IMG/VR virus record: IMGVR_UViG_3300037300_000313 | Span: 1-34,656 of that record | DNA from: a virus | Reading direction: 5' to 3' (one strand) | DNA: 34,656 nucleotides | Part shown: positions 3,128 to 34,656 of the stretch, piece after piece | How positions within the stretch are numbered: the first letter of the stretch is position 1 | Layout: each line of letters begins with the position of its first letter | Translations under genes and position numbers: made by a program | Notes under the pieces: model-generated | Told to the model about the DNA's origin: nothing | Seen by the model: only the letters and a program-made list of their open reading frames with translations | Databases searched by the model: none

Positions 3128-3598
3128 ATGTCTATGATGGGAAAACTTAAAGCAAAAGCTAAAGGTGCTTTGGCTACTGTTAAAAAAAAAGCTAAAGGTG
3201 CTGTGGCTGCTGTTAAAAAGGCAACAAACTCCACTGCACAACTCCGTGCTAAAGTTGCTGTTAAAGGGGCCGTAAGTAAGGTCACTAAGAGTGTACCTGC
3301 CTCTATTGCAAAAACAGCTGTTAAGGCTGGCTTTAAGGCTGGTAAGACTGCAGGTTCTGGACGCCCAGATCGTAAAAAGGGTAATCTTGACACTATGACT
3401 AAAGCCTCTAGTAAGACTAAACTTGGTAAGGTAGCTATGGGTGCTGGTGCCGCTGCTGGTAAAGCTGTAGGTTCCGGTCAAAAGCTTGCTGGTAAGGTGA
3501 GGACTTCTAACATTGGTCGTAAGATTGGTGGTGCCTTCCGTACTGCAAAGCAAAAGCTGGCCCTTAAAAAGGCACAAATGGCTTCGGCTAGAAAGTAA
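3128..3598 (+). CDS. Histone H1-like lysine/alanine-rich basic protein
   Basis: This 156-residue protein is made largely of Lys, Ala, Gly, Val and Thr. It contains KAKAKGAL and KKKAKGAV type repeats in the first 35 residues, only two Asp, and no Glu. It resembles the C-terminal tails of histone H1 and bacterial H1-like proteins, which bind and condense DNA through charge rather than a fixed fold. The likely role is DNA binding, either in the capsid, during packaging beside TerL, or on the host nucleoid after injection. No signal peptide is evident. A hairpin and the first copy of the candidate phage promoter follow it, so it probably ends a transcription unit. Low-complexity composition makes distant family assignment unsafe. 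Confidence 0.75.
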   Translation: MSMMGKLKAKAKGALATVKKKAKGAVAAVKKATNSTAQLRAKVAVKGAVSKVTKSVPASIAKTAVKAGFKAGKTAGSGRPDRKKGNLDTMTKASSKTKLGKVAMGAGAAAGKAVGSGQKLAGKVRTSNIGRKIGGAFRTAKQKLALKKAQMASARK

Positions 3599-3679: not shown

Positions 3680-3715
3680 TAGGTGACGTTAAAGAATAGG
3701 GGTGTGAAGACCTCT
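3680..3715 (+). promoter_or_regulatory. Candidate phage promoter, copy 1, with leader hairpin
   Basis: TAGGTGACGTTAAAGAATA (3680-3698) matches the motif shared with copies at 11275, 11309 and 21273. It is followed directly by GGGG and the hairpin AGGGGT-GTGAAG-ACCTCT (3698-3715). The shape, a linear AT-rich motif of about 19 bases ending AATA followed by G, resembles single-subunit phage polymerase promoters. It precedes the tail-tip operon starting at 3747. Function is inferred from recurrence and position. Confidence 0.6.
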
Positions 3716-3746: not shown

Positions 3747-4367
3747 ATGCCTTACAAGTGGGAAGGACTAGACATTCTAGCACCCTTAACTATCAAGTCT
3801 AATCAAACTATTTGGACTGTAGAAAAGTTAGATAAAAGTATTGATCGTATGTCTAGTCCATCACAGCGTTGGGATATGAACTTTAGTGTTAAGGATAATG
3901 AAAATGAAGGAGCAGCTTTTAAAGCTATGACTAGTGGTTTTGCTTCTAAAAGCTTTATGCCCATGCCTAACCTTCTTCGTTCTAAGCACTCTACCTCTAA
4001 CTTTATTGCTCCTACTTGGGATGCTATTCGTTTAGGAGTGGTTTCTGCTTCTGGTGCAACAACAGTTAGCTTAAAAAACGTTACTGGTGTTGGCCTTGCT
4101 TCTGGCGTAAGTGCCTTTATTCAGTTTGTTAATGATACAAAGGTTTATGCCGCTACAACTCAAGCAGTTTTTAATCCGTTTGCTAGTAACGTAGCCTTGA
4201 GTATTTTTCCTCCACTAAGAAAAGCAACACCAATTGACACAGTTGTAAGGTTTTATGATCATGTGACCTATCACTACTACCTTAACACTGATAACCTACA
4301 AGGCATTACCTACACTGATGGTATTCTTTTTGGTATTGAAAACGTTGCCCTTTGGGAGGCCTTGTAA
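3747..4367 (+). CDS. Tail tip or distal tail-like protein
   Basis: This 206-residue protein opens the operon under the first candidate phage promoter, with AAGAGGAG 9 bases ahead of the ATG. Residues 30-65 contain RWDMNFSV and a stretch ending MTSGFASKSFMPMPN. This recalls distal tail proteins, where an Arg-Trp-beta strand is followed by a helix that reads 'which region of the profile to cover'. The following genes are a tail-tip protein and a J-like protein, which supports a place at the tail tip. The stop overlaps the next start (TAATG). The family is not firmly recognised, so the role rests mainly on context. Confidence 0.55.
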   Translation: MPYKWEGLDILAPLTIKSNQTIWTVEKLDKSIDRMSSPSQRWDMNFSVKDNENEGAAFKAMTSGFASKSFMPMPNLLRSKHSTSNFIAPTWDAIRLGVVSASGATTVSLKNVTGVGLASGVSAFIQFVNDTKVYAATTQAVFNPFASNVALSIFPPLRKATPIDTVVRFYDHVTYHYYLNTDNLQGITYTDGILFGIENVALWEAL

Positions 4368-10885: not shown

Positions 10886-11277
10886 AAAAGCTTTTTGTAG
10901 CTTTACTTTTAATTGTGACTCTTACTTCTTGTTCAAAAGTAGGTGGTGTTGTAGCTAAGGCTGCTCTTGGTGGTATTGGACTTCCAACAGCAGCCTCGGC
11001 ACAAGTAGGTAAGACTAACACTCAAACTATAGGAACCTCAGAAAATGTTGACTTTGTAGTAAAAGACGTTACAAACAGCACTATCAGACCTGTTATGAGA
11101 CCTACGGGTATTACCACTACGGACAAGGTAGAAACAATAAATCAGATAAATAACAACGTACCTTTCTGGTTTATTGTCGCTTTTATCCTGTGGAGTATCT
11201 TTCTTTGGGAACTTCCTAGGTTCAGTACTATAGTAGAGTACTTCAAAAAAGGTAAACAAAAACAACAATATAATTAG
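10882..11277 (+). CDS. Lipoprotein with C-terminal membrane helix, u-spanin candidate
   Basis: This 131-residue protein has a lipoprotein signal: MKK, a hydrophobic stretch, then LTSC with the modified Cys at residue 17. Near the other end is a single membrane helix at about 94-110 (PFWFIVAFILWSIFLWE), followed by a basic cytoplasmic-type tail. A protein anchored by lipid in the outer membrane and by a C-terminal helix in the inner membrane is the topology of unimolecular spanins, as in phage T1, which fuse the two membranes at lysis. It closes the lysis cassette, just before the twin candidate promoters. The roughly 75-residue linker is Thr/Asn/Val-rich. Assignment rests on topology and position rather than on sequence similarity. 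Confidence 0.68.
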   Translation: MKKLFVALLLIVTLTSCSKVGGVVAKAALGGIGLPTAASAQVGKTNTQTIGTSENVDFVVKDVTNSTIRPVMRPTGITTTDKVETINQINNNVPFWFIVAFILWSIFLWELPRFSTIVEYFKKGKQKQQYN

Positions 11278-11312
11278 GGTGCGTTAAAGAATAGAGCCTA
11301 CCACAAAGTAGG
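11275..11312 (+). promoter_or_regulatory. Candidate phage promoter, copy 2a, with hairpin
   Basis: TAGGGTGCGTTAAAGAATA (11275-11293) matches the repeated motif with two or three differences. It is followed by GAG and the hairpin CCTAC-CACAAA-GTAGG (11297-11312). The 3' arm of the hairpin overlaps the first bases of copy 2b. It starts at the stop codon of the spanin-like gene and lies upstream of the portal gene. Confidence 0.57.
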
Positions 11313-11342
11313 TAACGTTAAAGAATAAAGAGGTCTTTCCTC
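11309..11342 (+). promoter_or_regulatory. Candidate phage promoter, copy 2b, with hairpin
   Basis: TAGGTAACGTTAAAGAATA (11309-11327) is the best match to the consensus. A short hairpin GAGG-TCTTT-CCTC (11330-11342) follows three bases later. The copy lies 34 bases after copy 2a and 50 bases before the portal start, so head genes would have a tandem promoter, fitting their need for high expression. Confidence 0.62.
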
Positions 11343-12990: not shown

Positions 12991-13010
12991 GGACCAAACT
13001 GGTCCCTTTT
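12991..13010 (+). terminator. Tight hairpin with short T tail between portal and tRNA
   Basis: GGACCA (12991-12996) pairs perfectly with TGGTCC (13000-13005) around a three-base loop AAC, followed by CTTTT. It could be a weak terminator or an RNA processing element releasing the tRNA. A 6-bp stem with a 3-base loop and purine centre also has the geometry of N4 virion-polymerase promoters, but that is speculative. Confidence 0.5.
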
Positions 13011-13086
13011 CCCCTTTAGCTCAGTTTGGTAGAGCACTTGCCTTGTAAGCATGAGGTCGTTGGTTCGAGGCCAACAGGGGGAACCA
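13010..13086 (+). tRNA. tRNA-Thr (anticodon UGU)
   Basis: A full cloverleaf can be drawn. The acceptor stem is TCCCCTT (13010-13016) with AGGGGGA (13076-13082), including one T-G pair. The D arm is GCTC-AGTTTGGTA-GAGC; the anticodon arm is CTTGC-CTTGTAA-GCATG with anticodon TGT. The T arm is GTTGG-TTCGAGG-CCAAC, and discriminator A plus encoded CCA end at 13086. The anticodon stem has one T-T mismatch (second pair). It would read ACA and possibly other Thr codons, which are common in these phage genes. It lies inside the head operon, between portal and the MuF-polymerase gene. Confidence 0.93.
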
Positions 13087-21272: not shown

Positions 21273-21311
21273 TAGGTAACGTTAAAGAGAGAGGGGAGAA
21301 ATCCCCTTTCT
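21273..21311 (+). promoter_or_regulatory. Candidate phage promoter, copy 3, with GAAA-loop hairpin
   Basis: TAGGTAACGTTAAAGAGA (21273-21290) matches the consensus until the last three bases. A 10-bp stem, AGAGAGGGGA with TCCCCTTTCT (one wobble), closes the GNRA tetraloop GAAA at 21298-21301. It is the strongest of the hairpins linked to this motif and could cap the 5' end of the tail transcript. It sits between the tail tube gene and the 80-residue gene at 21329. Confidence 0.6.
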
Positions 21312-22647: not shown

Positions 22648-25600
22648 ATGCTAGGTAGTGGAGCTGGTACTACAAAAGGCGTTACTATTAAGGTAAGAGC
22701 AGACACCTATAACGCTGAAAAAAACATGGCCCAACTTACAAGGTCAGTTAAAAACATTGATAACCAAGTTTCTAGGCTAGGTAAGTCTGTAAAGATTGCT
22801 GCAATTGCCTTTGCTGGTTTTGTTGCAGTAAATGGTTTTCTAAAAGGTGTTGCTAAGACTACTGACTCTATGGTTAACCTCGAAAACAGGCTTGCTCTTG
22901 TAGTAGGTCGTGGAAAAGAGCTTAACCAAACCTTTGAGGTACTTAGAAAGATTTCTGCTAAAACGGGTTCTTCTGTTAAGTCTTCAGCAGACATTTACAG
23001 TCGTTTTGGTATTGCATTGAAGAGTGCTAACGTAGAGTCTGAAGACCTTTACAAGATTACTGAAACCCTGCAAAAGTCAGTTTCCCTGTCTGGTGCAGAC
23101 GCAGTGGGTGCAGAAGCGGCTCTTATGCAGCTTGGTCAGGCCATGTCTTCTGGTGTGTTCCGTGGTGAAGAATTTAACTCAGTTAACGAACAACTTGGTC
23201 GTGTTATGGAGTCTCTTTCTATTCAGCTAGGTAAAACTAGAGGTGAGCTTAGAGCTATGGCTGAGGCTGGAGAACTTACTAGCGACGTAGTTTTTGCAGC
23301 ACTCCTTGCTGACGCTGAAAACGTTAACAAAGAATTTGAAACACTTAACTTTACCACTGCAAAACTTGCTCAGGTCTTTCGTGACGAGCTTACACTAGCT
23401 ATATCAAAGGTAGACAAAGCTTTTGGTATTTCAGAAAGCATTAAGAAAAAGCTAGGCTCTATGACTAAGGCTGTTCAGTTTTTTAATGATAACTTTGAAG
23501 GTATTGTTCTTAGAATTAAGCTTTCTGTAAATGCAATAAAGCAGTTGTTTGCGGGTATGTCTTCAAGCGTTCAAAACTACCTTCGTAAAACTTTCGGTGG
23601 AGACCGTTGGGATGCTGCCTTTTCTGGCCTTGGAAAAGCCCTAGCAAAAATACAAAGCTTTATTGCTAGCGTAATTGGCTTTTTTAAAGATGCTTGGCAT
23701 CAAATTGTTGGCAACTCTTACTGGCCTGAAATTTTTTATGAAGGTGCTAGAGCTATAGCTGGTCCTAACACTATTGCAGCTATTAATAAAGTTATTGGTT
23801 GGGTTTACAACTTTGTTACTAATATAAAGCAAAGTTTTTCTAAACTTAATAACTCAGCTACAGGTCTTTGGGAAGAAACTATAAAGAAAATTGAAAGCTT
23901 AGACCTTAAAACTTCTCTTGATCAAATTAGTATACCGCAAGCTTTTAAAGAGTGGATAAGTAGCCAAACAGACACAGCTATAGCTGCCGTAGCTTTAGGT
24001 TTAGGTTTAGTATTTCGTTTTGGTATTAGAAGAGCTTTTCTTGGCGCTGTTGCTTTAGCTCTTGCTCCTGAAATACTTAACTCCGGTATTTTCCAAAGTA
24101 CACTGTTTACACTTGGTAAAGGTATTGGAACGGCAATAAACGAGTTGTTTACAGGTGATGGCGAATTTGGTGAAAGACTCATACAAGGTATTAAAGACTC
24201 TCTTGCTTCTCTTGGTAGGGGTGTTTGGGAAGGTCTTTTTCCGGGTGCAGTAATAGAAGACTTTCAAGCTACTGTTGTAGGTACCCTTACTGGTGGCGCA
24301 CTTGGGGCACTGCTTTTTGCAGGACTTGGAAGAGCAATTTTTGGTTTACTTGCTGCTTTTGCTAGATCAATAATTGTAATGTTAGGAACATACTTATTGG
24401 CGGCAGCTATAGCAAACCCTATTGGTGCAATAATTACTGTTATTATAGCAGGGTCCTTTGCTATGGAGGCTTTTGACCTAGATAGAATAATAGGTGACTT
24501 TGTAGGTAATATTTTTGCTACTATGGTAAGTTGGCTTGGCCTTGGTTCAGGTGGTCAGCTACTAGTTAAAAATGCCATTAGTGGTATGATAGTAATTGCC
24601 TTGTCTCCTTTTAAATTTGTAGGTAAAATTATAAAAGCTATATTTTCTTCTGAGTATTCTATTGCTGATGCTTTTAGGGATAGTGGTCAAGAAATAGTGG
24701 AAGCTGTTAATGAGATTATTGATTTAATTACAGCTCCCTTTGAAGTATTTTTTACTTGGATTGGAACTAAATTTTCTGAAATAGGAAAGTCTATAAGAGA
24801 TGCTTTTTCAGGATTAGGTGGAATTAGCGATTCAGGACCGAAAAAACCATCAGTTGATTTACTTCCAGTTGAAGAAAGATTTCTTAACGAAACAAGACCT
24901 AAGCTTAAAGCAGCGGGGGGCTTTATTTCTGGACCCGGTACGGCCACTTCTGATAGTATACCAGCTATGCTTTCTAATGGAGAGTACGTTGTTAAAGGTG
25001 CTGCTGTAGATAAGTACGGCATTAACTTCCTTGACAAAGTTAACCAAGGTATGCTACCTAAGTTTGCTACTGGTGGTTACGTTGGTGGTGAGTCAGAAAG
25101 ACTTCAGGGTAAATTGGCTTCACTAGAAGCTAAACGTAACAGGATTATTATAAGTAACAAACTCAATAAAATTGATGATCCGGGTTACATTGTTGAGTCT
25201 ACTAGTTCTATAGAAGACAGTATCCGTTCTGTAGGCGAAAGAATAAACCAACTGAGTACTGACCAAGTTAATAACAGCGATGAACAAGAAACGGGTTCTG
25301 TTCAGAGTATGACTTCCTCAAGGAGCGTTAGTGATAAAGTTAAGGAACTTACAGGAAAAGGTAGCCTTCCTTCTTCGCTAACTGGTACTATTGAAAAGGT
25401 CATGGCAGCACTAGATGAACTTGGTATAGACTCTTCTCTTGCGTTAAAGGGTCCAGAAGCAATAAAAGAAGGTCTAAAGCTTCTTGAGCTTCAAAAGCAG
25501 CTTAACGCCCTGAGTGTTAGTGATGTAAACGCTGTTAAAGCAAAGACTGAGGAAATTAGAAAACAGCAAGAGCTTATAGACAAAACGCTACAAGGAAAAG

Positions 25601-26268
25601 AAGGCAACAGTATGAAAGAAGGCTTTTCTTCAAGCCTTTCTTCTGGTATAAGTGACTTCTTAAAAGGTGGTAGTCTTAAAGACCTGTTTACTGGGTTGCT
25701 TGATAACATTACATCTAACATTATTGATAATTTTTCTCAAGGGCTTACAGACTCTATAATGGACTCAAAGCTTTTTAAAGGAATTTTTGACAATTTCCTC
25801 AATCCAGATAACTTTAAAAAACTTGGTAAAAGTGTAGGTGGTATTTTTAAAGAAGTTGGTAGCGATCCCAAAACTTTTGAACCTATGAAAGGTGGACTTA
25901 CTAAAATGTTTTCTGGCGTAGGTAACTTTTTTAAGTCTATTTTTGGTTCTATTTTTGGTGGACTTGGTAAAGGTGCTGGCGTCAAGAAGCTCGCCTCTGG
26001 TGGTGTTGTACCAAACATTCCCGGTTCACAAGTTGGTAAAGACTCTGTGCCAGCTATGCTTATGCCCGGTGAGAGGGTTCTTTCTAAGAGTGACATTAGT
26101 AGTGGTACAAGGGGTGCTGGTTCTAACAGGACTACTACCGCTTCCTTTAACATTAACGTTACTGGTGATGTCTCTTCTCAAACTCGTAGAGAGATTATGG
26201 AAATGATCCCTCAAATTGCTCGTGGAGTAAACGCTGACAATCACGAGTCTAACTTTAGCTATAGGTAA
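22648..26268 (+). CDS. Tail tape measure protein
   Basis: This 1206-residue protein sets the tail length and helps DNA cross the envelope. The N-terminal 250 residues show the family pattern: membrane-leaning segment KIAAIAFAGFVAVNGFLKG, then ALMQLGQAMSSGVFRGEEFN, VNEQLGRVMESLSIQLG and RGELRAMAEAGELTSDV. Several hydrophobic segments lie at about 420-480 and 540-620. Two copies of a Gly-rich motif occur near residues 768 (SDSIPAMLSNGEYVV) and 1131 (KDSVPAMLMPGERVL), typical of tape measure C-terminal parts. Coiled-coil helices lie between them. AAAAGGAG precedes the ATG. At about 1.5 angstrom per residue the length suggests a tail in the 180 nm range, an inference from the family rule. Confidence 0.93.
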   Translation: MLGSGAGTTKGVTIKVRADTYNAEKNMAQLTRSVKNIDNQVSRLGKSVKIAAIAFAGFVAVNGFLKGVAKTTDSMVNLENRLALVVGRGKELNQTFEVLRKISAKTGSSVKSSADIYSRFGIALKSANVESEDLYKITETLQKSVSLSGADAVGAEAALMQLGQAMSSGVFRGEEFNSVNEQLGRVMESLSIQLGKTRGELRAMAEAGELTSDVVFAALLADAENVNKEFETLNFTTAKLAQVFRDELTLAISKVDKAFGISESIKKKLGSMTKAVQFFNDNFEGIVLRIKLSVNAIKQLFAGMSSSVQNYLRKTFGGDRWDAAFSGLGKALAKIQSFIASVIGFFKDAWHQIVGNSYWPEIFYEGARAIAGPNTIAAINKVIGWVYNFVTNIKQSFSKLNNSATGLWEETIKKIESLDLKTSLDQISIPQAFKEWISSQTDTAIAAVALGLGLVFRFGIRRAFLGAVALALAPEILNSGIFQSTLFTLGKGIGTAINELFTGDGEFGERLIQGIKDSLASLGRGVWEGLFPGAVIEDFQATVVGTLTGGALGALLFAGLGRAIFGLLAAFARSIIVMLGTYLLAAAIANPIGAIITVIIAGSFAMEAFDLDRIIGDFVGNIFATMVSWLGLGSGGQLLVKNAISGMIVIALSPFKFVGKIIKAIFSSEYSIADAFRDSGQEIVEAVNEIIDLITAPFEVFFTWIGTKFSEIGKSIRDAFSGLGGISDSGPKKPSVDLLPVEERFLNETRPKLKAAGGFISGPGTATSDSIPAMLSNGEYVVKGAAVDKYGINFLDKVNQGMLPKFATGGYVGGESERLQGKLASLEAKRNRIIISNKLNKIDDPGYIVESTSSIEDSIRSVGERINQLSTDQVNNSDEQETGSVQSMTSSRSVSDKVKELTGKGSLPSSLTGTIEKVMAALDELGIDSSLALKGPEAIKEGLKLLELQKQLNALSVSDVNAVKAKTEEIRKQQELIDKTLQGKEGNSMKEGFSSSLSSGISDFLKGGSLKDLFTGLLDNITSNIIDNFSQGLTDSIMDSKLFKGIFDNFLNPDNFKKLGKSVGGIFKEVGSDPKTFEPMKGGLTKMFSGVGNFFKSIFGSIFGGLGKGAGVKKLASGGVVPNIPGSQVGKDSVPAMLMPGERVLSKSDISSGTRGAGSNRTTTASFNINVTGDVSSQTRREIMEMIPQIARGVNADNHESNFSYR

Positions 26269-26597: not shown

Positions 26598-26603
26598 ACC
26601 TTA

Positions 26604-26631
26604 GGCTACCCTCGTTTGGGTAGTCTTTTTT
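26604..26631 (+). terminator. Rho-independent terminator of the late operon
   Basis: GGCTACCC (26604-26611) pairs with GGGTAGTC (26618-26625) around TCGTTT, with one G-T pair, and six T follow directly. It is the only fully classical host-type terminator in the late region, 6 bases after the HNH gene stop. It separates the structural genes from the block of small genes. Confidence 0.9.
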
Positions 26632-26671
26632 ATCAAAAACGACCACAAAAAAGTGAGAAAACTAAGGCATC

Positions 26672-26677
26672 TATAAT
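26672..26677 (+). promoter_or_regulatory. Possible sigma70 -10 box ahead of the small-gene block
   Basis: A perfect TATAAT sits in the 147-base gap after the terminator and 67 bases before the first gene of the block. No good -35 hexamer is seen 16-18 bases upstream, where the sequence is A-rich. A host promoter is plausible by position, but the evidence is only this box. Confidence 0.35.
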
Positions 26678-26725
26678 AGAAAGAATCCTTTAGGGGAAGA
26701 AATCTAACGGGAATAATCCCAAGTA

Positions 26726-33639: not shown

Positions 33640-33646
33640 AATCTTT

Positions 33647-33691
33647 GCCCTGCCCTTCGGGGTGGGGCACCCCTCACTGATTTTTTTTTTT
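33647..33691 (+). terminator. Twin element B: UUCG hairpin with alternative stem and T11 run
   Basis: GCCCTGCCC (33647-33655) pairs with GGGTGGGGC (33660-33668) around TTCG. The alternative stem GGGGTG-GGG-CACCCC (33659-33673) is identical to that of element A. A run of eleven T lies at 33681-33691. It sits between the HTH gene and the RNA polymerase gene, with AAGGAAG and ATG 33704 following at once. The 5' arm differs from element A at three positions, yet all nine pairs can form (with G-T pairs). Confidence 0.72.
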
Positions 33692-33703: not shown

Positions 33704-34656
33704 ATGACTGCAGAAAAAATTCTAGAAGACCTTACTCAAGACCTGAGTTACAGGCTAGAAAAAATGGATGCAAGGAACGGAGCTTTCTGGCTAACTGAAC
33801 AAAAAGAATTTTTAGCCGACTTCCTTATTCAGTTTTCCTACTCTCACGTACTACGCGCTATAGAAAGAAAAAGTACCTTAGTAGAAGTCTCTTCAAGTAT
33901 TGGTAGAAGGCTCAGGCAAAAACTAAGACTAACCCAAGACAGTGTTTTAGAAATCCATGCTGGTTGGTTTATCCTAATATCCTTTATTGACCTTGACTTG
34001 GTTTCTTACACTAAAGAAAAAACTAAGGATGCTAACCAAAGGACTTCTAAACACCGTGCTTACGTTGTTGTTGCAAAAGACTGGGAAAAACTAAAGTCCC
34101 TACTAGACAGCGTAAAACATGAAAACTGTGACATGTTTCCGGTAAAGGAAGCCCCTGATCCTTGGTTGTTAGGTGATCCTTTCCACGGTTCTACAGGAAC
34201 ACCTGTTATCAAAAAAGCCTCTATTTCTCAGCTAAAGCCTTTTGAGAAGCCTACTAAAGAAATGGAAGTCTTAACAAGAACTTTGAACAGGCTTTCCTCT
34301 ACTGGTTGGAGAATTAACAAAGCTATTTTTCCTGTTTACACTTACTTTCTAGATCACAAAGACACAGTTAAGGATAGCCCTTTTAAGTTCCATAAAGAGA
34401 TTGATAAGCAAAAGAAAAAGTCTATGCTTATTGAAGTAGAAGCTATTCGTCGTCTTGCTGAAAAAAACCTTGACAACGCTTTTCACCACCTTTATAATTT
34501 TGACTTCCGGGGCAGGGTTTACCCAAACACAGCCTTTTTACATGAGCAAAGTAGTGACAATGCTAAGGGTATCCTTATACTAGACGAGCCTGTAGAGTTA
34601 GGCAGTACTGGTATGAAGTGGCTTTGGTATCACGCGGCTAACTCTTGGGGTGAAGA
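33704..34656 (+). CDS. Second T7-type single-subunit RNA polymerase (N-terminal part, cut by window edge)
   Basis: ATG 33704 follows AAGGAAG and opens a frame that stays open to the window end, about 317 residues. D267-F-R-G-R271 in YNFDFRGRVYPN is the T7-family DxxGR signature. It is followed by FLHEQSSDNAKGILI and the helix MKWLWYHAANSWGE, equivalent to the T7 WLxxHxAN segment. This is much closer to normal polymerase sequence than the MuF fusion (which has DSRGR). The N-terminal domain is short compared with T7, where the same motif is near residue 421. Catalytic motifs A, B and C lie beyond the window. By analogy to N4 RNAP II it may transcribe later genes, which is inference. Confidence 0.88.
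   Translation, partial: MTAEKILEDLTQDLSYRLEKMDARNGAFWLTEQKEFLADFLIQFSYSHVLRAIERKSTLVEVSSSIGRRLRQKLRLTQDSVLEIHAGWFILISFIDLDLVSYTKEKTKDANQRTSKHRAYVVVAKDWEKLKSLLDSVKHENCDMFPVKEAPDPWLLGDPFHGSTGTPVIKKASISQLKPFEKPTKEMEVLTRTLNRLSSTGWRINKAIFPVYTYFLDHKDTVKDSPFKFHKEIDKQKKKSMLIEVEAIRRLAEKNLDNAFHHLYNFDFRGRVYPNTAFLHEQSSDNAKGILILDEPVELGSTGMKWLWYHAANSWGE

Follow-up and report, generated by a model that had tools for sequence, protein, structure and literature searches.

Two T7-type RNA polymerases, one fused to a MuF head protein, and a proposed transcription relay in a phage lineage related to naomviruses

Virion-delivered single-subunit RNA polymerases (RNAPs) are known from N4-like phages, and in SP6 and T7 it is the host RNAP that makes the phage RNAP first. 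In N4 (Schitoviridae), the virion RNAP (vRNAP), gp50, is a 3500-aa protein, and RNAPII is a heterodimer of gp15 and gp16 (269 + 404 aa). In the part of the N4 literature available here, RNAPII is described as having a minimal AT-rich promoter, the hairpins of N4 promoters have their centre near −11 and contain bases that are recognised, and the late genes are transcribed by the host RNAP (PMC4496689). A different arrangement is described, in the available text, for the Thermus phage P23-45, which has a vRNAP fused to the tape-measure protein (gp96) and a nonvirion RNAP (gp64), and whose relatives without the fused polymerase are also without its motif (PMC10770324). In polyvalent MuF proteins, a MuF domain is joined to an enzyme that is presumably delivered along with the phage DNA. 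The partners named in the portion of the source consulted are RNase, phosphoesterase, RelA/SpoT, and PRTase domains, and a single-subunit RNAP is not among them (PMC5512222).

Here, we analyze a 34,656-base IMG/VR virus record, IMGVR_UViG_3300037300_000313 (hereafter, the window), which ends within a gene for a T7-like RNAP (RNAP2) and encodes a second polymerase fused to a MuF head protein (MuF fusion). The resemblance to N4 lies in a putatively virion-linked single-subunit RNAP, a second single-subunit RNAP in the early region, and hairpins near candidate early promoters; however, the MuF fusion stands in the place of gp50, and RNAP2 is one chain rather than a heterodimer. P23-45 likewise has two promoter motifs and pairs a nonvirion polymerase with one joined to a protein of the virion, but in the text available its enzymes are homologues of cellular RNAPs and its carrier is the tape measure (PMC10770324), whereas the enzymes described here are T7-type, with a MuF protein as the carrier. 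With the Autographiviridae T7 and SP6, the window's lineage has in common an RNAP2 that aligns over the whole catalytic region and a promoter-like element (class 1) that resembles SP6 promoters. RNAP2 (732 aa in DSS3_VP1) is N-terminally shorter than the RNAPs of T7 (883 aa) and SP6 (874 aa), and while early transcription in T7 and SP6 depends on the host RNAP, we propose a virion polymerase for this role here. The closest resemblance is to DSS3_VP1 (VP1) and DSS3_PM1 (PM1) (Naomviridae, Noahvirus), which match the window in gene order, in having the two polymerases, and in the two classes of promoter-like element, and differ from it in that protein identity is ∼65 to 67%.

The order portal, tRNA, MuF fusion, capsid, tape measure, a run of small genes (the early interval), and RNAP2 is common to the window and VP1, a member of Naomviridae. 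Judged by this gene order and by the core proteins it has in common with VP1, the window belongs to the Naomviridae lineage. The MuF polymerase is found in at least 552 IMG/VR stretches. The tRNA directly 5' of the MuF fusion is a tRNA-Thr (TGT; 13010-13086) in the window and a tRNA-Asn in VP1 and PM1. A 74,179-base contig (G036:C53, L255-L258) in a Gammaproteobacteria MAG (JAOUJT010000001.1) is collinear with naomviruses; it is equal in length to an IMG/VR phage contig and is probably a misbinned phage. The features of the window are collected in the table.

Table. Features of the window that bear on its two polymerases and their candidate promoters.
Feature	Position	Strand	Context or basis
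Class 1 TAGGTGACGTTAAAGA	3680..3695	+	Between ORFs ending at 3598 and starting at 3747
Class 1 TAGGGTGCGTTAAAGA	11275..11290	+	Upstream of portal, tRNA, and MuF fusion
Class 1 TAGGTAACGTTAAAGA, 1 mismatch	11309..11324	+	In tandem with the 11275 site, upstream of portal and MuF fusion
MuF head protein fused to single-subunit RNAP, 1468 aa	13118..17524	+	Pfam, catalytic residues, model
Class 1 TAGGTAACGTTAAAGA, 1 mismatch	21273..21288	+	Structural region, ahead of ORF 21329
Tape-measure protein gene, end of structural module	22648..26268	+	Domain and PHROG matches
Terminator-like hairpin and T-run	26601..26631	+	After tape-measure region, directly 5' of class 2
Class 2 element AAAAAAGTGAGAAAACTAAGGCATCTATAATAG (GTGAGAAAACTAAGGCATCTATAATGA at 26653)	26647..26679	+	One match at ≤3 mismatches; 0 in 100 shuffles
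Terminator-like hairpin and T-run	33646..33691	+	Directly upstream of RNAP2
RNAP2, T7-like single-subunit RNAP, first 317 codons	33704..34656	+	Cut by contig end

Several lines of evidence identify the window's last gene, at the level of sequence, as the start of a genuine T7-like RNAP. The frame begins at the ATG at 33704, with AAGGAAG ahead of it, and has no stop before the contig end; the GTG at 33662, which the gene-calling program took as the start, lies 5' of the start seen in homologues. A reading of the sequence alone (hereafter, the sequence-only reading) had taken this gene for a second single-subunit RNAP with FDFRGRVYPN and WLWYHAAN segments in the T7 arrangement. The segments are found at D267-R271 (within NFDFRGRVYP) and 306-313, and the identification is borne out by PHROG matches (RNA polymerase phrog_414, E 9e-28; N4-like RNAP phrog_2166, E 6e-8) and by a tblastn search against phages, in which 317/317 residues align with the "RNA polymerase" of DSS3_VP1 and DSS3_PM1 at 65% identity. 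The N-terminal part is truly shorter than that of T7, as the same reading had proposed, because the T7 counterpart of the motif at ∼267 lies near residue 421. The window ends before motif A, so motifs A to C, which had been named as the check on this enzyme, were examined in relatives. Among the 30 of 45 collected RNAP2 sequences that span the catalytic region, the motif A Asp, the motif B Lys/Tyr, and the motif C Asp are invariant (30/30), and the Asp/Arg pair of DxxGR is present in 27/27, the three further rows being split there by an insert. The VP1 ortholog matches T7 RNAP with E 1.8e-58, and the match reaches the C-terminus (SDFAFS vs SDFAFA). An RNAP2 profile scores 296 bits against T7 RNAP, 246 against SP6, 24 against N4 gp16, and 19 against N4 gp15, and has no significant match to the N4 vRNAP. 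In VP1, PM1, and other complete copies, RNAP2 is a single frame of ∼730 aa. With one chain and T7-type profile scores, a heterodimer of the gp15/gp16 kind is ruled out.

Some RNAP2 genes are split, and a group I intron accounts for the break in 3/3 genomes scanned. In L004 (10786-11510), an insert of ∼720 bases, also found in L005-L008, splits the gene exactly between DFR and GR; in L004, the one locus of these scanned, it contains a group I intron core (53.4 bits; Rfam cut-off 50). On this ground, we reject the reading that RNAP2 is broken, or stops prematurely, in L004-L008. The L004 insert also holds a 172-aa ORF that, by eye, resembles an HNH-type homing endonuclease. In a distant clade, group I introns are found at L284:2626-2889 (G037; 80 bits), where the intron sits at motif B, and on the minus strand at L281:1738-1971 (G038; 78 bits); these are separate insertions into the RNAP2 catalytic core.

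The MuF fusion contains the Pfam domains MuF (aa 156-247) and RNA_pol (aa 1048-1424). Its catalytic residues are D922/R926, D1065 in motif A, K1133/Y1141 in motif B, and D1383 in motif C, and the equivalents are invariant in all 72 MuF-fusion polymerases that span the catalytic region (of 87 collected); thus, both polymerases have kept these residues. An AlphaFold2 model of aa 381-1468 has a mean pLDDT of 69.6, with most of the core at 75 to 95. This model matches T7 RNAP with a Foldseek E of 2e-18 and, in VIA-align, with Z 27.8 (580 residues, rmsd 8.9); the corresponding values are Z 24.6 (475 residues, rmsd 3.3) for human mitochondrial RNAP and Z 15.9 (500 residues, rmsd 4.6) for the N4 vRNAP. 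In sequence, the fusion resembles T7 RNAP weakly (phmmer E 0.03, profile E 9e-4), and a search with a MuF-fusion profile did not report the N4 vRNAP at E≤100. By its motifs and predicted fold, the MuF fusion is a second polymerase of T7 type. In the public records examined, the protein is annotated as a head protein only, and in VP1, where it is gp108, and PM1 its label is head morphogenesis or minor head protein-like protein only. In EBPR siphovirus 1 (L009:20713-21573), the MuF polymerase is split just 5' of FYGAG, at motif B, by a group-I-intron-like RNA (40.5 bits, below the cut-off of 50) with an HNH endonuclease gene, and the parts are annotated as the separate genes gp47, gp48, and gp49. 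An intron insertion point at motif B is typical of conserved active sites.

The strong difference between the two polymerases that the sequence-only reading had noted is evident in the VP1 pair, in which RNAP2 matches the MuF fusion with a blastp E of 0.013. In a tree from which SP6 RNAP (lost to the motif filter) and the N4 vRNAP are left out, RNAP2 and the MuF polymerases form separate groups with 100/100 support, each including its distant member. Because the N4gp16, Kolga, T7, and MAG rows have long branches, we use this tree solely for the split between RNAP2 and MuF polymerases. A recent duplication, which phylogeny had been expected to reveal if it had occurred, is rejected on these two results, and the sequences point to two groups that are ancient and distinct. 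An hhalign comparison of the two gives a probability of only 0.4, and their remote kinship therefore rests on motifs and fold.

The two polymerases occur together in the window and in 3/3 long records of the distant clade, whose MuF polymerase is ∼27% identical. We searched 30 of 80 MuF loci for RNAP2, choosing longer contigs and determining the downstream lengths by hand. RNAP2 was found in 7/30, which are all seven that extend at least 14.7 kb downstream of MuF; the remaining 23, with at most 14.3 kb downstream, gave no RNAP2. Two phages depart from this pattern, and both count against the relay proposed below. The 54 kb record of EBPR siphovirus 1 has the MuF polymerase, and RNAP2 and class 2 are absent from it. 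Conversely, in Pelagibacter phage Kolga (L010) the MuF protein has no polymerase part, while an RNAP2 relative (29%) is present at full length; thus, RNAP2 expression is possible without a MuF polymerase.

Two intergenic motifs divide the genome. Class 2 has the consensus GTGAGAAAA-N5-GCATCTATAATGA, also written GTGAGAAAACTAAGGCATCTATAATGA. Its single site in the window lies 3' of the tape-measure gene and heads the interval leading to RNAP2, and we propose this site as a candidate promoter for the MuF polymerase; VP1 and PM1 have two sites each in the equivalent region. A scan of 2.9 million IMG/VR viral contigs with a seed pattern that fixed 20 of the ∼30 conserved positions, leaving the poly-A and downstream bases free, matched 72 stretches, and 72/72 encode relatives of VP1 proteins. 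At ≤4 mismatches, these stretches contain 138 distinct sites and no antisense site. Among 196 matches, in which contigs covered by overlapping stretches are counted more than once, none lies before the end of the tape-measure gene and two lie after the start of RNAP2. At least one site is present in 31/31 stretches that hold both the tape-measure gene and RNAP2. In the distant clade, the element takes the form TGCGCAAAATCAGGTATCTTATATGA followed by a hairpin. Eight such sites in three genomes are all sense and upstream of RNAP2, with none in 30 shuffles each: three in the MAG contig (whole contig), all in the interval that separates the last tail gene from RNAP2, and two in G037 and three in G038 (parts scanned). 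These were taken from an intergenic listing, the matches in a loose scan of the distant contig (≤8 mismatches) being mostly noise. A scan allowing ≤7 mismatches found nothing at ≤4 in EBPR siphovirus 1 or Kolga. At VP1 67793 (L002:17793), a 13-base class 2 core, GCATCTATAATGA, without the upstream half, follows a terminator and lies upstream of gp032; it is perhaps another early promoter variant. Together with the two matches after the RNAP2 start, we count this core against the relay.

Class 1 has the SP6-like consensus TAGGTGACGTTAAAGA. The window has four sites at ≤1 mismatch, compared with 0.01 expected, all on the plus strand and placed as in VP1; the site at 21273, for example, is placed relative to genes like VP1 29397. 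All 16 sites in VP1 (≤2 mismatches) and all seven exact sites in G022 are also on the plus strand. The VP1 sites from 6581 to 29397 precede structural genes, and those at 45927, 46394, and 46552 lie just 3' of RNAP2. A class-1-like site with two mismatches at VP1 38534, also present in PM1, lies inside the early interval and counts against the relay. The resemblance to SP6 promoters, one of base sequence, was assessed with the SP6-like core TAGGTGAC...TA.AGA; the SP6 genome site TTAGGTGACACTATAGAAG has 14/18 bases in common with the window site at 3680. Class 1 varies with RNAP2: in records whose RNAP2 is 57 to 58% identical to that of VP1, it becomes TA[GC]CTGACNTTAAAGAACAAT or near variants, and in G019 (RNAP2 47% identical), it becomes ATACTGCCG[CA]CTAATGA, also given as AAAAATACTGCCG[CA]CTAATGA. 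Class 2, by contrast, is retained in 10/10 contigs scanned. A class 1 that changes with RNAP2 and a class 2 that stays constant fit with RNAP2 reading class 1 and another enzyme reading class 2. Sites of either class from related phages are not independent.

Both classes are followed by hairpins. Among the 135 of 138 class 2 sites with full flanks, 87 have a stem of at least 5 within a few bases 3' of the element (shuffle mean 8.4, largest 17; 200 shuffles) and 48 have none; counting stems of at least 4, there are 41 distinct hairpins. Such a stem is present 3' of class 1 at 24/32 sites (shuffle mean 10, largest 17; 500 shuffles). Because both classes carry one, we read the hairpin as belonging to the 5' end of the mRNA, the more likely interpretation, rather than as a recognition hairpin. 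Unlike the N4 promoter hairpins, the class 2 hairpin lies 3' of the conserved block, is variable in sequence, and is missing at about a third of sites. An N4-style recognition hairpin for the virion polymerase is, for its position, its absence from 48/135 sites, and its presence at class 1, rejected as the simplest reading. The terminator-like hairpin ahead of RNAP2 occurs in the window, VP1, PM1, and G019, and most other relatives are without it. Lying between class 2 and RNAP2, it means that RNAP2 needs read-through or an unseen promoter, which counts against the relay.

We consider it probable that the two polymerases form a relay. The MuF fusion would become part of the head, close to the portal, and would enter the cell with the DNA. 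The MuF polymerase would then initiate at class 2 and transcribe the early interval into RNAP2, and RNAP2 would recognise class 1 and transcribe the later genes, including those for the portal and the MuF polymerase. The loop would close across infections in that MuF polymerase made by RNAP2 would serve the next infection. We infer packaging and ejection of the fusion, the assignment of enzymes to promoters, and the timing; the class 2 step is suggested by promoter anatomy, and the class 1 step by anatomy and covariation. This anatomy fits the proposal of the sequence-only reading that the MuF fusion would act first and RNAP2 later. Its further description of the phage as N4-like is not supported as kinship, with RNAP2 a single T7-like chain rather than gp15/gp16 and with the predicted fold of the MuF fusion closer to T7 RNAP (Z 27.8) than to the N4 vRNAP (Z 15.9). 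An N4-like plan stands as an analogy only, in that SP6-like putative phage promoters precede the structural genes, unlike the N4 late genes read by host RNAP. For the same reason, we regard a true N4-type plan, with the MuF polymerase early, RNAP2 restricted to middle genes, and the host RNAP late, as very unlikely. It would be in line with two single-subunit polymerases of which one is virion-linked, as in the available account of N4 (PMC4496689), and with the class 1 sites just after RNAP2 in VP1, but class 1 also precedes structural genes at all four window sites and at VP1 6581-29397, and RNAP2 is not the N4 heterodimer.

A plan of the T7/SP6 type, in which host sigma70 RNAP would read class 2 and so produce RNAP2, which would read class 1, is unlikely, though much less so. 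The MuF polymerase would then have another job, e.g., transcription-driven DNA entry, or would act at a small number of dedicated promoters that were missed. This plan draws on the TATAAT within the near-clade class 2, a perfect bacterial −10 hexamer that counts against the relay, and on Kolga, which, with RNAP2 and with neither a MuF polymerase nor class 2 at ≤4 mismatches, must start transcription with something else. However, no TTGACA-like hexamer was found 16 to 18 bases upstream of the TATAAT, and there are instead ∼30 contiguous conserved bases, from the poly-A through ATGA. Moreover, the distant clade has TTATAT in place of TATAAT but retains the remainder of the element, again located upstream of RNAP2, and the contigs matched by class 2 (72/72) belong to one lineage. 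We find it scarcely credible that RNAP2 is the sole functional enzyme and that the polymerase carried by the MuF fusion is a passenger, whether structural or decayed: the weak sequence similarity to T7 RNAP would agree with decay, but the catalytic residues are intact in 72/72 sequences, the predicted fold is T7-like, the polymerase is kept in the distant clade, and the intron-like insert of EBPR siphovirus 1 lies right at motif B. The relay thus remains our preferred reading.

In the literature searched, we found no description of a fusion between MuF and a single-subunit RNAP; the naomvirus description, reportedly that of Rihtman 2021, was not covered by this search and may contain one. The dU-DNA phage paper has no RNA polymerase text, and the consulted part of the EBPR phage paper makes no mention of an RNA polymerase (PMC3097231). 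On balance, we favor the view that two T7-type polymerases, one of them delivered in a MuF head protein and each driving the gene of the other, form a self-contained relay in a large and largely unrecognised lineage of phages. Early transcription would then start without host RNAP, possibly from deoxyuridine-substituted DNA, at a new type of promoter with a variable 5' hairpin. The promoter motifs make the whole transcription programme testable in cultured DSS3_VP1, Kolga provides a natural comparison for whatever replaces the MuF polymerase, and the two orthogonal polymerase/promoter sets are candidate tools. In the portions of the sources consulted, DSS3_VP1 is called a dU-DNA phage (PMC12697855) and dU:A pairs are reported to inhibit T7 RNAP (PMC6486633); thus, these enzymes would reveal how dU templates are handled by an RNAP of T7 type. 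If the relay is true, MuF would be a second carrier protein for a virion-delivered single-subunit polymerase, in long-tailed phages.
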